64,000 nucleotides of DNA, taken from Emticicia sp. BO119 (lineage in GTDB: Bacteria > Bacteroidota > Bacteroidia > Cytophagales > Spirosomataceae). Both the position numbers and the translations under genes were made by a program. Below, piece by piece: positions 18,497-23,487 of this stretch; the first letter of the stretch is position 1, and each line of letters starts with the position of its first letter. A model generated the notes under the pieces. The model did no database searches, was not told the origin of the DNA, and was given only the letters and a program-made list of their open reading frames with translations. The stretch covers positions 248,001 through 312,000 of the forward strand of contig NZ_JACETV010000006.1 in NCBI RefSeq assembly GCF_013912375.1, in the 5' to 3' direction.

Positions 18497-20209
18497 ATGC
18501 GTTTGAGTTTTATTTTTCTCTTGGGAGTAATTTGTTTTAGTTCTTCGGCACAAAGTACGTTTACTCCGCTGAATAACGACTATTTGCATTTTATCGAACG
18601 CTATGAAATAAAAAGCGGAAAACTTTCAAATAAATTTTATAGCAATGTTAAGCCCGTCGGCCGTAAAGATTTATTAAGTCTTACTGTCGCCTTAGAAAAC
18701 GACTCAACAGCAAAACTTTCGAAAGTTGATTATTTTAATATCAATTACCTGCAAAATGATAGTTGGGAATGGCTTCAGGATAGCTACCCTGATGGAATGA
18801 GCAAAGGTAAAATTACTCAGAACAATACAAAAAAACCACTCTTCAAATACTTCCTTCAAAAGAAATCAGACTTTTATTACTTCAACAACGAAGATTTTGA
18901 TATCCATATCAGTCCCATTTTTCAGTTTGGTATTGGTGGAGATAATCTGACAAAAAATGCCCCGTTTACTAATACACGTGGTATAGAAATCAGAGGCAAT
19001 CTTAATAAAAAATTAGGATTCTACTCAATGCTTACTGAAAACCAGATTTCGTATCCAAAATACGTCAGGAATTACTCCAGACTATATAATGGTTTCCCAT
19101 ATGAGGGCTTCACCAAAATCGTTGACAGTGATTCAACCCGTATGATAACCGATTTTTTTTCTGCAAGAGGTTATATTACATTCAGGGCTTTAAAAAATCT
19201 TACTTTACAATTTGGGCATGATAAAAACTTTATAGGCTCAGGCATTCGGTCTTTGATTCTATCTGATTTCTCAGCACCTTACCTGCATCTGAAAGCAATT
19301 ACGCAAGTCGGCAGGTTTCAGTATATCAATATATTTGCACAAGCTGTTAACAAACAAGTTCCTGTTGCCAAAGACGGTACAGAGCAAATACCACCAAAAT
19401 ACTTTACTTTTCACCATCTGAGTGCTAATGTTACCAAAAACCTCAACATAGGTCTGTTTGAAACGGTGGTATTCGGGCAACGTAAAGTTGGATTTGACAT
19501 TAATTATCTGAATCCTGTTATTTTTTACCGTTATGTAGAAGGGCACTTAGGTAGCGTAGATAATTCTATTGTTGGAGCCGATTTTAAGTATAATTTTCTG
19601 CGCCGCTTCTCCCTATACGGACAACTGGTTTTAGACGAATTTAACTTCAAGCATTTTAAAAGAAAAGGCTGGTGGGCTACTAAATATGCTACCCAGATCG
19701 GCCTCCGCTATGTTGACGCTTTAGGCGTTAAAAACCTTGATTTGCTGACTGAATATAACTTAGCCCGGCCATATACCTATAGCCATAATTCGTCTTACAG
19801 TAATTTTGTACACTATAATTTGCCCTTAGCTCACCCATTAGGCTCTAATTTTCGTGAATTTTTGTTTATTGCCCGGTATCAGCCTTCACCAAGACTGACT
19901 TTGAATTATAATTTTATGATGGCCCGGCATGGCGAGGATTATAATTTTATTAACTGGGGAGGAAACATTCAGCGCAATTACAATCTGCTTCGCCCATACG
20001 ATTACAATAATTTTATTGGGCAGGGTAATGAAGCAAATATTCAGAATATCGAAATAGGAGCATCTTATATGTTAGGACATAACCTATTTATAGACACCAG
20101 TTTCCAGAACAGAAAAGTAGATTATCCTGAAACTTCCGAAAATACCTCAAGTAATATATTTTCATTAGGAATCAGATGGAATATAGGCAAAAAACAGCTA
20201 TTGTTTTAA
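18497..20209 (+). CDS. Capsule assembly Wzi-like outer-membrane protein
   Basis: 570 residues with a signal peptide (FIFLLGVICFSSSAQ). The mature protein is a beta-barrel with many alternating aromatic/hydrophobic strands, typical of the Wzi family as it occurs in Bacteroidota: HISPIFQFGIGGD, RGIEIRGNLNKKLGFYSMLTENQ (given here as family-like strands), and LQFGHDKNFIGSGIRSLILSDFS. The last strand ends IRWNIGKKQLLF. E. coli Wzi helps attach group 1 capsule at the surface; here such a role is inference, since the exopolysaccharide locus is over 20 kb away. The gene is monocistronic, divergent from ispH. Confidence 0.82.
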   Translation: MRLSFIFLLGVICFSSSAQSTFTPLNNDYLHFIERYEIKSGKLSNKFYSNVKPVGRKDLLSLTVALENDSTAKLSKVDYFNINYLQNDSWEWLQDSYPDGMSKGKITQNNTKKPLFKYFLQKKSDFYYFNNEDFDIHISPIFQFGIGGDNLTKNAPFTNTRGIEIRGNLNKKLGFYSMLTENQISYPKYVRNYSRLYNGFPYEGFTKIVDSDSTRMITDFFSARGYITFRALKNLTLQFGHDKNFIGSGIRSLILSDFSAPYLHLKAITQVGRFQYINIFAQAVNKQVPVAKDGTEQIPPKYFTFHHLSANVTKNLNIGLFETVVFGQRKVGFDINYLNPVIFYRYVEGHLGSVDNSIVGADFKYNFLRRFSLYGQLVLDEFNFKHFKRKGWWATKYATQIGLRYVDALGVKNLDLLTEYNLARPYTYSHNSSYSNFVHYNLPLAHPLGSNFREFLFIARYQPSPRLTLNYNFMMARHGEDYNFINWGGNIQRNYNLLRPYDYNNFIGQGNEANIQNIEIGASYMLGHNLFIDTSFQNRKVDYPETSENTSSNIFSLGIRWNIGKKQLLF

Positions 20210-20362: not shown

Positions 20363-20383
20363 TAATTTTGCAATATAGTTGCA
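20363..20383 (+). promoter_or_regulatory. Operator A (TGCA-N7-TGCA) on the promoter of the TonB receptor gene
   Basis: A -7 type box TAATTTTG at 20363-20370 runs directly into the inverted repeat TGCAATATAGTTGCA at 20369-20383 (TGCAA-N5-TTGCA). The same combined layout recurs at two sites before the lipoprotein gene. A repressor bound here would cover the start site of the receptor gene. The regulator is not identified; the repeat shape suits a Fur-family protein. Confidence 0.6.
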
Positions 20384-20422
20384 TTTATAATAGTGCAATC
20401 AAATAATAGTATGATTGACCCA

Positions 20423-22813
20423 ATGAAGAAAAGCCTTCTTATATTTATTTATTTTCTATATTTATCCTCTTTTGCGCAAACAAAAGAAGAAACACCGGGT
20501 GTCCACTGTGATTGCTTTATACATGGTGTAGTGTTAGACAACACTACCAAAGAACCCATCGTTGGGGCAGTAGTTTTTGTTAAAGAGCAAAATAAAGGTA
20601 CTATCACCGATATTAACGGACATTATCATATTGCTAATCTTTGTCAGGGAACTTATACTGTTGTAGGTCGGATTGTTGGCTATCAGGAAAAAACCTATAC
20701 TATTAAACTTTTACATGAGGCCGAGCAGGAAATTAAACTTTCTGAAGGTGAGTTACACTTAGCCAATATAGATATTAAAGCAGAAAAGATTGATAACCTG
20801 ACTCAAACCAAAAATGTATTAGAGAATGCTGCGCTTGACCAGAACAGAGGGCAATCTTTAGGTGAAACTTTGAAACAAATATCAGGTGTAACTACACTCC
20901 AGACAGGTAGCTCTATAGCCAAACCTGTTATTCACGGTATGCACTCGAACCGTGTATTGATTATGAATAATGGGGTACGGCAGGAAGGACAACAATGGGG
21001 TAGCGAACATGCCCCCGAAATTGACCCGTTTGTAGCCAAGAAAATTACAGTACTAAAAGGGGCAGCAGGTGTACGGTATGGCTCTGATGCCATAGCAGGC
21101 GTTATCATGCTTGAACCTGAAGCCCTACCAGATTCCACCAGAATGAGTGGTGAGATAAATACAGTATATTTTACTAATGGTAACCAGATTGTAACCTCAG
21201 GTATATTCGAAGGCGGGATTCGCCCGAAAAAAGCTGCTGTTCCGCAGTCGTTTGGGTATCGGGTACAAGGTACTTTTAAGAGAGGCGGTGATATTTCTAC
21301 ACCAGATTACAGGTTATCCAATACGGGTGTATCTGAAATCAATTTTTCGGTAAGTGCAGATTATAAAAGACGTAACTGGCAGTCAGAGATTTTCTTCAGT
21401 CAGTTTAATACCCAGATTGGTGTATTCGCAGGCTCACATATCGGTAATGTAACAGATCTGATAGAAGCGATTAAACGTGGCAGCCCATTGAATATCTATA
21501 CACCAGAAAAATTCACTTATACTATTGGGAGACCTTATCAGGACGTACAACATAATTTGATGAAACTAAAATCTACTCATCAGCTAAAGAGCGGTAAGCT
21601 GTCGCTTACTTTGGGAAGACAGTACAACTACAGAAAAGAAGTGGATATTCTGAGAGGAGATAAAAACCTAATTCAGCTTTTTCAACTGACCACCTACACC
21701 GGAGAATTACTCTTTGAACACAAGCCCCTGTTTAAATTACTGACAGGCTCAGTGGGGATCAACACTAATTTTCAGCAGAATCTGACAACTGGCACTTTAC
21801 GGGAACCACGCTCTTCAACTGTATTAATCCCTAATTTTCAGAATCTGACTGGAGGTGTATTTCTGATTGAAAGAATCGTTAAAAATCAATGGGAAGTTGA
21901 GGGGGGGCTTCGTTATGATTTCCGTAACTTAGATGTGTATAGAATTCCAAGAGGGCAGCAGGCTAAAGTAGAAAGCAAAAAGCAGAATGAAAATTTTACT
22001 GGTACTTTTGGTTTGAATTTCAGACCTAACTCACAATTGAATTTCCTGTTTAATCTTAGTTCGGCCTGGCGGGCTCCTACTGTCAACGAATTATATAGCG
22101 ATGGCGTGCATCATGGTGCAGCCAGTTATGAAAAAGGCGATGAAAATCTGAATGCCGAGGTAGCTACCAATTTGTCGTTTACTGCTAATTATATTACCAA
22201 GCTGTTTCAGCTTGAATTACATCTGTATAATAATTATATCCGTAATTTTATCTTCCTGTCTCCAACAGGGCGGCCAACACTTACTATCCGTGGAGCATTC
22301 CCAGAGTTTTGGTATGCACAAACTAATGCACGTTTCAGGGGAATAGACTTAAGTGGTAATTTTCAGATTCATAAGCATATTTCTCTAAATTCTAAATTAT
22401 CTTATCTACAAGCGCAGGATATTACCCATACACAACCATTAATCATGATTCCACCGAATCGCTGGGAAAATACCCTTCGCTATGAATGGAAAAAGAGTGG
22501 AATTTCGCTCACTAATTTGTATGTAGCCAGACAAAGCCGTGTGCCAACAAAAGTAATTTTCAGTGAAATTCCTACAGACGAAATTATATTCAATCAATAC
22601 GGTGGCGACTTCGCACCTCCTCCATCAGCATATATGCTCTGGTCGGCTGCTTTTACTCAACAACTAAAGTTTAATAACCGGAATGGTATATATATATCCT
22701 TGACAGTAAACAACTTACTGAACACTTCTTATCGGGATTACCTGAATCGATTCAGGTATTTTGCTGACGAAATCGGTAGAAATTTTGTAATAAGAGCTAA
22801 ATATTCGCTCTAA
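20423..22813 (+). CDS. TonB-dependent receptor (metal-type)
   Basis: About 796 residues. A signal peptide (LLIFIYFLYLSSFAQ) is followed by a carboxypeptidase-like regulatory domain (about residues 30-115) that begins with a Cys/His-bearing stretch, GVHCDCFIHGVVLD, and contains DINGHYHIANLCQGTY. The plug domain shows SKPVIHGMHSNRVLIMNNG-like and RQEGQQWGSEHAPEID segments and ends ITVLKGAAGVRYGSDAIAGVI; a 22-strand barrel then closes with a terminal aromatic-poor strand. This plug signature is that of ZnuD-like receptors, so zinc or another transition metal is a reasonable substrate guess. I take the ATG at 20423 because it starts the signal peptide; 20411 is possible. The promoter carries operator A. 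Confidence 0.88.
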   Translation: MKKSLLIFIYFLYLSSFAQTKEETPGVHCDCFIHGVVLDNTTKEPIVGAVVFVKEQNKGTITDINGHYHIANLCQGTYTVVGRIVGYQEKTYTIKLLHEAEQEIKLSEGELHLANIDIKAEKIDNLTQTKNVLENAALDQNRGQSLGETLKQISGVTTLQTGSSIAKPVIHGMHSNRVLIMNNGVRQEGQQWGSEHAPEIDPFVAKKITVLKGAAGVRYGSDAIAGVIMLEPEALPDSTRMSGEINTVYFTNGNQIVTSGIFEGGIRPKKAAVPQSFGYRVQGTFKRGGDISTPDYRLSNTGVSEINFSVSADYKRRNWQSEIFFSQFNTQIGVFAGSHIGNVTDLIEAIKRGSPLNIYTPEKFTYTIGRPYQDVQHNLMKLKSTHQLKSGKLSLTLGRQYNYRKEVDILRGDKNLIQLFQLTTYTGELLFEHKPLFKLLTGSVGINTNFQQNLTTGTLREPRSSTVLIPNFQNLTGGVFLIERIVKNQWEVEGGLRYDFRNLDVYRIPRGQQAKVESKKQNENFTGTFGLNFRPNSQLNFLFNLSSAWRAPTVNELYSDGVHHGAASYEKGDENLNAEVATNLSFTANYITKLFQLELHLYNNYIRNFIFLSPTGRPTLTIRGAFPEFWYAQTNARFRGIDLSGNFQIHKHISLNSKLSYLQAQDITHTQPLIMIPPNRWENTLRYEWKKSGISLTNLYVARQSRVPTKVIFSEIPTDEIIFNQYGGDFAPPPSAYMLWSAAFTQQLKFNNRNGIYISLTVNNLLNTSYRDYLNRFRYFADEIGRNFVIRAKYSL

Positions 22814-22836
22814 AATAATTGTTTTTGGTTAAATAT

Positions 22837-22857
22837 TATTTTTGCAATATTGTTGCA
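22837..22857 (+). promoter_or_regulatory. Operator B upstream of the lipoprotein gene
   Basis: TATTTTTG at 22837-22844 runs into TGCAATATTGTTGCA at 22843-22857, an inverted repeat TGCAA-N5-TTGCA. It has 14 of 15 bases in common with operator A. Its right arm includes the -33 element of the promoter annotated at 22852-22883. Confidence 0.62.
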
Positions 22858-22883
22858 CAATCAAAAATATAGATTTATATTTG
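22852..22883 (+). promoter_or_regulatory. Bacteroidota-type promoter of the lipoprotein gene
   Basis: GTTG at 22852-22855, a 20-base spacer, then a perfect -7 box TATATTTG at 22876-22883. Operator B covers the -33 and operator C starts within the -7, so both ends of the promoter are occupied by the same motif. Confidence 0.6.
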
Positions 22884-22896
22884 CATCGTTGTTGCA
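22876..22896 (+). promoter_or_regulatory. Operator C on the -7 box of the lipoprotein gene
   Basis: TATATTTG at 22876-22883 runs into TGCATCGTTGTTGCA at 22882-22896. The arms are TGCA/TGCA with the same 15-base length as operators A and B, and the left half is less well conserved. It is centred 39 bases downstream of operator B, close to four helical turns. Confidence 0.55.
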
Positions 22897-22926
22897 AATA
22901 CAGATTCATCATTAAATATAAAACCC

Positions 22927-23487
22927 ATGCAAAAAAATCGTATCACCATTTCCGGTCTCTTTGCTTTTGCGCTATTGTTTTCGTTGGTAGCTTGTAAAGA
23001 TACTTCGGTAGATGTAGAAGAAGAAAACGAAACCATTACTACTGTTAAATTAAATTTTACTTCTGGAGGAACCACGCAGACATTTGTATTCAATGACCCT
23101 GATGGTGATGGAGGGAATGCCCCAACTAAATTCGATAATATCAGTCTTAAACCCAATACAAGTTATACACTTACGGTTGAGTTATTAGACGAATCAAAAA
23201 ACCCTTCGGAAAGTATTACAGAAGAAGTAAAAGAGGAAAGTGATGAGCATTTATTTGTTTTTACACCTTCGCCGGCAAGCCTGTTCACTTATACCTACGG
23301 CGACAAAGACGCGCGTAATTTCCCGATTGGCTTGACCGGAACTTTACAAACCGGAGCCACAGGAACAGGTAAATTAAAAGTACAATTGCGGCATCAACCA
23401 CCTGTGAACGGGAAAGAAGTGAAAGATGGTACTCCAATACCCGGAAGCGATGACGTAAACTTAGATTTTAATGTCAATATTCAATAA
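22927..23487 (+). CDS. Lipoprotein paired with the TonB receptor
   Basis: 186 residues. The lipoprotein signal (LFAFALLFSLVAC, Cys near residue 24) is followed by a short acidic linker (VDVEEENETITT) and an Ig-like beta domain with FNDPDGDGGNAPTKFDNISL, TSYTLTVELLDES and LKVQLRHQPPVNG. It is probably anchored in the outer membrane. I do not recognise an established function. It is the immediate neighbour of the ZnuD-like receptor, 113 bases downstream on the same strand, yet has its own promoter with the same operator motif. This suggests co-regulation by one metal-responsive repressor and an accessory role in uptake at the receptor. Confidence 0.8.
   Translation: MQKNRITISGLFAFALLFSLVACKDTSVDVEEENETITTVKLNFTSGGTTQTFVFNDPDGDGGNAPTKFDNISLKPNTSYTLTVELLDESKNPSESITEEVKEESDEHLFVFTPSPASLFTYTYGDKDARNFPIGLTGTLQTGATGTGKLKVQLRHQPPVNGKEVKDGTPIPGSDDVNLDFNVNIQ

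Follow-up and report, generated by a model that had tools for sequence, protein, structure and literature searches.

Predicted Zur-type operators at the promoters of a ZnuD-like receptor gene and a lipoprotein gene in Emticicia

In Caulobacter crescentus, Zur represses TonB-dependent receptors together with an ABC system, as presented in the main text of the work on its regulon (PMC4176598). Zur regulons have been compiled in RegPrecise 3.0 for more than 25 groups, the Bacteroidaceae being covered according to the text of the database paper (PMC3840689), and an earlier database entry of an equivalent Zur regulon is therefore possible. Little was found in the literature on zinc control in Bacteroidota. 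In fact, no Zur operator in this phylum was reported in the titles and abstract beginnings among the matches listed in a survey that was not exhaustive, and the words zur, zinc and fur are absent from the main text of a study of the B. thetaiotaomicron regulatory network (PMC12596196).

The window analysed here is the whole 64 kb stretch of DNA from Emticicia sp. BO119, and three of its sites have been compared with the upstream regions of related genomes. The reading reached with high confidence from this comparison of sequences is that the three sites would be operators of a Bacteroidota Zur-type zinc-uptake repressor, the 139 aa protein encoded on contig C5.

The three sites and their promoters

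The first-pass annotation had placed three TGCA-N7-TGCA sites at 20369-20383, 22843-22857 and 22882-22896, each preceded by a TAnnTTTG box sharing two bases with it, and both statements held when checked on the sequence, the full spans being 20363-20383, 22837-22857 and 22876-22896, all on the forward strand. The sites are of the form TAnnTTTGCA-N5-GTTGCA, and the core of the box is the palindrome TGCAAY-N3-RTTGCA. Predicted operator 1, TGCAATATAGTTGCA (20369-20383), stands before the receptor gene and has two bases in common with TAATTTTG (20363-20370), the probable -7 element of that gene as judged by its sequence and by the enrichment in relatives of TAnnTTTG at -6 to the box. Predicted operator 2, TGCAATATTGTTGCA (22843-22857), is overlapped by TATTTTTG (22837-22844), read from the sequence, while predicted operator 3, TGCATCGTTGTTGCA (22882-22896), the left half of which is degenerate, follows TATATTTG (22876-22883), the probable -7 element of the lipoprotein gene according to its sequence and the relatives. 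Sequence, shuffles and relatives support operators 1 and 3; for operator 2 the support comes from sequence, shuffles and the spacing of paired boxes in relatives.

The exact pattern TANNTTTGCANNNNNGTTGCA occurs 3 times in the 64 kb, whereas 100 dinucleotide shuffles of the window never produced it, and a chance origin of the sites was rejected on this ground. Bare TGCA-N7-TGCA is unremarkable in the window, with 3 found for a mean expectation of 1.4 and at least 3 in 18 of the 100 shuffles, and the signal is carried by the GTTGCA half and by the fusion to TAnnTTTG, beyond the bare motif. In three Emticicia relatives, with lipoproteins 76, 84 and 87% identical, all three sites are found at the same places in flanking DNA that differs; the position of operator 1 is kept, with two base changes in one relative, and the place of operator 3 is occupied by TGCACTATTGTTGCA or TGCACCATTGTTGCA. 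In a further seven Emticicia genomes (L301-L307) the second box before the lipoprotein gene has become TGCAAC-N3-AATGCA, and the first, 37 to 39 bp from it, ends in ATTGCA (ACTGCA in one).

The element TAnnTTTG is known as the -7 element of Bacteroidota, accompanied by a TTTG near -33, in the text that describes it (PMC7366714). It had been claimed that one site lies before the receptor gene and that the other two flank the lipoprotein promoter; the first part stands, whereas the two sites rather sit on that promoter. Site 3 overlaps its -7 element and site 2 begins 39 bp further upstream, where the TTG (22853-22855) of the GTTGCA of operator 2 ends 20 bp before the next TAnnTTTG, that is, about 26 bp centre to centre before the lipoprotein -7 element, the spacing expected of a -33 element. 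In 11 of 19 pairs of neighbouring boxes, a count that takes two loci in both directions, the spacing is 38 or 39 bp, and at the lipoprotein gene this spacing sets the upstream GTTGCA at about -33.

The same relation between box and promoter was found in relatives. Among 101 boxes before regulon genes, a set in which many come from closely related species and some boxes between divergent genes are counted once per direction, TAnnTTTG starts exactly at -6 to the box in 24 (shuffles, mean 1.8 and maximum 10) and at +15 to +32 from the box start in 29 (shuffles, mean 1.6 and maximum 7), most commonly at +22. In a smaller and less redundant set of 28 boxes, the TAnnTTTG overlap was observed 7 times on the gene strand and never on the opposite one. 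These offsets imply that the operator either covers the -7 element or sits just upstream of it. With the box in phase with the -7 element of Bacteroidota, a repressor bound to it would lie over the promoter, and given this geometry repression would presumably proceed by occlusion.

The receptor, the lipoprotein and their conserved residues

The receptor gene (20411-22813, forward strand) starts at the ATG at 20411, in a reading frame open from a GTG at 20393, and encodes an 800-residue TonB-dependent receptor with Pfam plug and barrel domains and an N-terminal CarboxypepD_reg_2 domain. The first-pass annotation had ascribed to it the plug pattern of ZnuD-like metal receptors, and comparison with the PDB agrees, the nearest solved relative being the zinc receptor ZnuD (4rdr, E 2.2e-17), ranked above heme and copper receptors. 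Moreover, two of its residues that align with histidines of ZnuD, His200 and His567, are conserved without exception, in 127 of 127 and 128 of 128 relatives, respectively; we take them to match the ZnuD zinc ligands. The receptor reaches 114.5 bits against the NCBIfam ZnuD model, below the cut-off of 950, and is therefore termed ZnuD-like only. Within the CarboxypepD_reg domain, Cys33 is kept in 105 of 117 relatives and Cys78 in 108 of 125, and the two may form a disulfide or bind a metal. A gene for a Wzi-like capsule assembly protein occupies 18497-20209, shortly ahead of the receptor gene; no link between it and the regulon was seen.

The lipoprotein gene (22927-23487, forward strand) encodes 186 aa with a lipobox at Cys23 and has no match in Pfam or NCBIfam. 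An alignment (A3) of 41 sequences, drawing on 40 of 48 named loci, was built with the omission of L252, which carries stop codons, and with L224, L230, L232, L242, L245, L249 and L256 also remaining outside; His108, His156, Glu35 and Tyr80 are among its invariant residues, and several acidic residues are nearly invariant. The AlphaFold model is confident and beta-rich (mean pLDDT 85.8), and a Foldseek search with it against the PDB gave nothing at E<=0.001. The receptor gene adjoins the lipoprotein gene in 84 of 97 loci from 96 genomes, and we infer that the lipoprotein acts as an outer-membrane helper of the receptor. Tentatively, as a possibility falling somewhat short of the probable, it may be proposed that this protein founds an undescribed family of outer-membrane zinc-capture proteins, the histidine pair and the acidic residues of which would hold zinc or a zinc carrier and pass it to the ZnuD-like receptor, in a two-part intake spread across Bacteroidota and perhaps a few other phyla. 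Lipoprotein-receptor pairs are also present in metagenome bins labelled Latescibacterota and Gemmatimonadetes (L258, L260, L263 and L265), with no box near the pair, and in L260 the pair occurs twice in tandem.

Distribution of the box and of the Zur-like gene

Within 295 genomes of the class, the lipoprotein was found in 126 and the Zur-like gene in 126 as well, the two sets being different; the Zur-like match was strong (E<=1e-20) in 106 genomes and weak in 20, and 169 were without it. From 99 of the 126 genomes with a lipoprotein match 100 loci were taken and 94 were scored, L175, L177 and L214 giving no tblastn match and L074, L080 and L188 having too little upstream DNA. When up to one mismatch was allowed and the 400 bp preceding the receptor/lipoprotein unit were scanned, the box was present in 23 of 41 loci from genomes where the Zur-like match is strong, in none of 6 where it is weak and in none of 47 from genomes lacking the gene; for the 41 against the 47, the Fisher test gives 2e-10, a value that is indicative, since the genomes are related and p-values overstate their independence. 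The 23 box-bearing loci are spread over 12 families. When families holding both states were compared, omitting L089 (the second locus of one genome) and the weak-match loci, the contrast was seen in 5 of 9, and in the other 4 no box was found in either state. The box is absent within 400 bp in 18 of the 41 loci of Zur-like genomes, although in three of these (G013, G057 and G094) an exact one is found further out, some 460 to 520 bp ahead of the receptor match.

The association extends to whole genomes, where the exact box occurs in 78 of the 106 Zur-like genomes (146 boxes), in 28 of the 169 without the gene (31 boxes) and in 5 of the 20 with a weak match, against 5, 10 and 0 genomes of the same classes for the reversed control pattern. 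As 28 of 169 exceeds the control, either a part of the Zur-like genes escaped detection or a part of the boxes is read by another protein. In addition, an unbiased listing of palindromic 6-mer dyads in the 250 bp upstream placed TGCAAC-N3-GTTGCA first in the Zur-like set, in 12 of 41 loci, the next reaching 4. This dyad is not among the top ones of the 47 loci without the Zur-like gene, which share no palindrome, no dyad occurring in more than 3 of them. In these genomes the receptor and lipoprotein genes persist with neither box nor Zur-like gene, and there they must be controlled otherwise. In 10 of 97 loci no more than 5 kb separate the Zur-like gene from the receptor-lipoprotein pair; it adjoins the pair in 10 loci of Dyadobacter, with boxes ahead of both units.

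A genome-wide search for the motif, as the first-pass annotation had proposed, located TGCAA-N5-TTGCA at 10 places in the 6.57 Mb of this genome against 4 for the reversed control. The random scatter that would have spoken against a regulon was not seen, the sites tracking one regulator gene and preceding the same transport genes. Further boxes precede a MerC-family gene on contig C3 and, on contig C1, ABC genes for a LolD-like ATPase and a MacB_PCD permease, and the merC and ABC genes carry the box in some relatives too. Three relatives within the genus retain the box before the ABC genes, and it is absent in seven other Emticicia genomes having both the ABC genes and the Zur-like gene. The merC gene was found in 17 of the 295 genomes, near the Zur-like gene in 9 of 17 loci and near the ABC pair in 3; when up to one mismatch is allowed, the box is present in 11 of these 17 loci and, among 30 loci of the Zur-like gene, in 12, four places being common to both lists. 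The comparative data support the idea, already put forward from the window, of a small regulon for metal uptake in which the lipoprotein would be a new accessory member.

In this genome the box search gave 28 strand hits, which comprise 7 in the regulon, 2 at a box before a TldD-like protease gene, 14 inside predicted ORFs, 4 intergenic ones (L004, L006, L019 and L020) and one near-box (L015; contig C4, between an oxidoreductase gene and another gene). Exact TGCAACNNNGTTGCA, of which the receptor and lipoprotein sites are Y/R variants, occurs in this genome only before the TldD-like gene (contig C25, 370664), a candidate regulon member that was rejected, the box being found in 2 of 13 loci scanned, this genome included. 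At L020 (1501-1517), the sequence TTTGCAAATATATTGCA departs from the box by one mismatch, and an ORF on the opposite strand follows it at a distance of about 23 bp.

The regulator, other readings and known systems

Three Fur-family genes are present in the genome. For two of the proteins the best NCBIfam model is Fur, with scores below the cut-offs; the third gene, on contig C5, encodes a divergent protein of 139 residues with the Fur-family domain (Pfam FUR, 42.2 bits, cut-off 23.1). A profile of 22 relatives of the C5 protein, searched against the PDB, retrieved E. coli Zur first (4mtd, E 7.9e-12), with Fur, M. tuberculosis Zur and PerR close behind. The invariant His65, Cys79, Cys98 and Cys101 of the family align with His77, Cys88, Cys103 and Cys106 (the last two forming CxxC) of E. 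coli Zur, residues which we presume to be Zur-type regulatory metal ligands, and a cysteine at the Cys88 place is also found in M. tuberculosis Zur (2o03) and is absent from the one Fur chain (9ire) and the one PerR chain (2fe3) compared. The C5 protein scores 31 bits against the NCBIfam Zur model (cut-off 167), the Fur and PerR models scoring about equally, and for this reason it is termed Zur-like and not a member of that equivalog. As would be expected of a Zur, boxes precede likely zinc-uptake genes; no box was found at the locus of the C5 gene itself in this genome. The earlier expectation of a Zur- or Fur-like repressor encoded elsewhere is supported by the comparative data, which favour Zur-like over Fur.

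From these relations we infer zinc as the signal, as well as operator binding and repression. A zinc-bound Zur dimer would sit on TGCAAY-N3-RTTGCA, where it would hide the -7 element TAnnTTTG, and probably also the -33 element in the case of the lipoprotein gene, so that RNA polymerase would be kept off. At low zinc, Zur would be released, and the receptor, the lipoprotein, the MerC-like membrane protein and the LolD/MacB-like ABC transporter would be co-produced for the import of zinc.

It is improbable that the Zur-like protein reads the boxes and senses manganese, nickel, cobalt or copper instead. One further box-bearing gene is MerC-like, of a family named for mercury, and to our knowledge the metal choice of a Fur-family protein is not safely readable from its sequence, which counts for such a sensor; nevertheless, the Zur-type cysteine and histidine positions are invariant, and the receptor retains the histidine positions of ZnuD. 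Less probable still, and very unlikely, is the binding of the boxes by an iron-type Fur, with the genes serving iron or heme uptake. The top-scoring NCBIfam model of the receptor is a heme/hemoglobin receptor, below its cut-off, and two proteins with Fur as their best model are encoded in the genome, but in the PDB the receptor matches ZnuD best, and a Fur relative, found in 265 of the 295 genomes, cannot explain a box that follows the Zur-like gene; Fur was rejected as reader of the box on account of this near-universal occurrence. Moreover, G090, G094, G160 and G229 have exact boxes and the Zur-like gene with no match to Fur. Finally, that the repeats are extended promoter sequence or chance, bound by no repressor, is scarcely credible: TAnnTTTG is an ordinary -7 element of the phylum in the text cited (PMC7366714) and TGCA-N7-TGCA by itself is no rarity in the window, but the presence of the box depends on the regulator gene, and the box is still palindromic where, overlap being absent, the promoter element has its start 21 to 24 bases past that of the box, on which ground a plain promoter signal was rejected.

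Should the Zur-type repressor indeed act through these sites, a simple DNA word would be available for reading zinc regulons out of Bacteroidota genomes, together with an example of a repressor site built into the unusual promoter of the phylum. The analysis also names a conserved and unstudied lipoprotein as candidate partner of a zinc receptor.

Like E. coli Zur (4mtd), the C5 protein is of the Fur family and has the His77, Cys88 and CxxC positions aligned; it differs in being divergent and below the NCBIfam Zur cut-off. The enterobacterial Zur box is AT-rich, unlike the box described here. The receptor resembles Neisseria ZnuD (4rdr) in plug and barrel homology and in the aligned, conserved histidines, and differs from it by the additional CarboxypepD_reg domain at its N terminus and by the linkage of its gene to that of a lipoprotein. 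As regards C. crescentus, the main text on its Zur regulon (PMC4176598) does not contain the word lipoprotein and gives the operator as GTTA-N5-TAAC, unlike the box here, in promoters with -35 and -10 elements, unlike the -33/-7 elements here; the operators either overlap the -10 region or fall in the space separating -10 from -35, two placements closely resembling those observed in this work. Zur regulons are well known; within the literature surveyed, what appears to be new is the operator found in Bacteroidota, the way it is fused to the -7 element, and the family to which the lipoprotein belongs.
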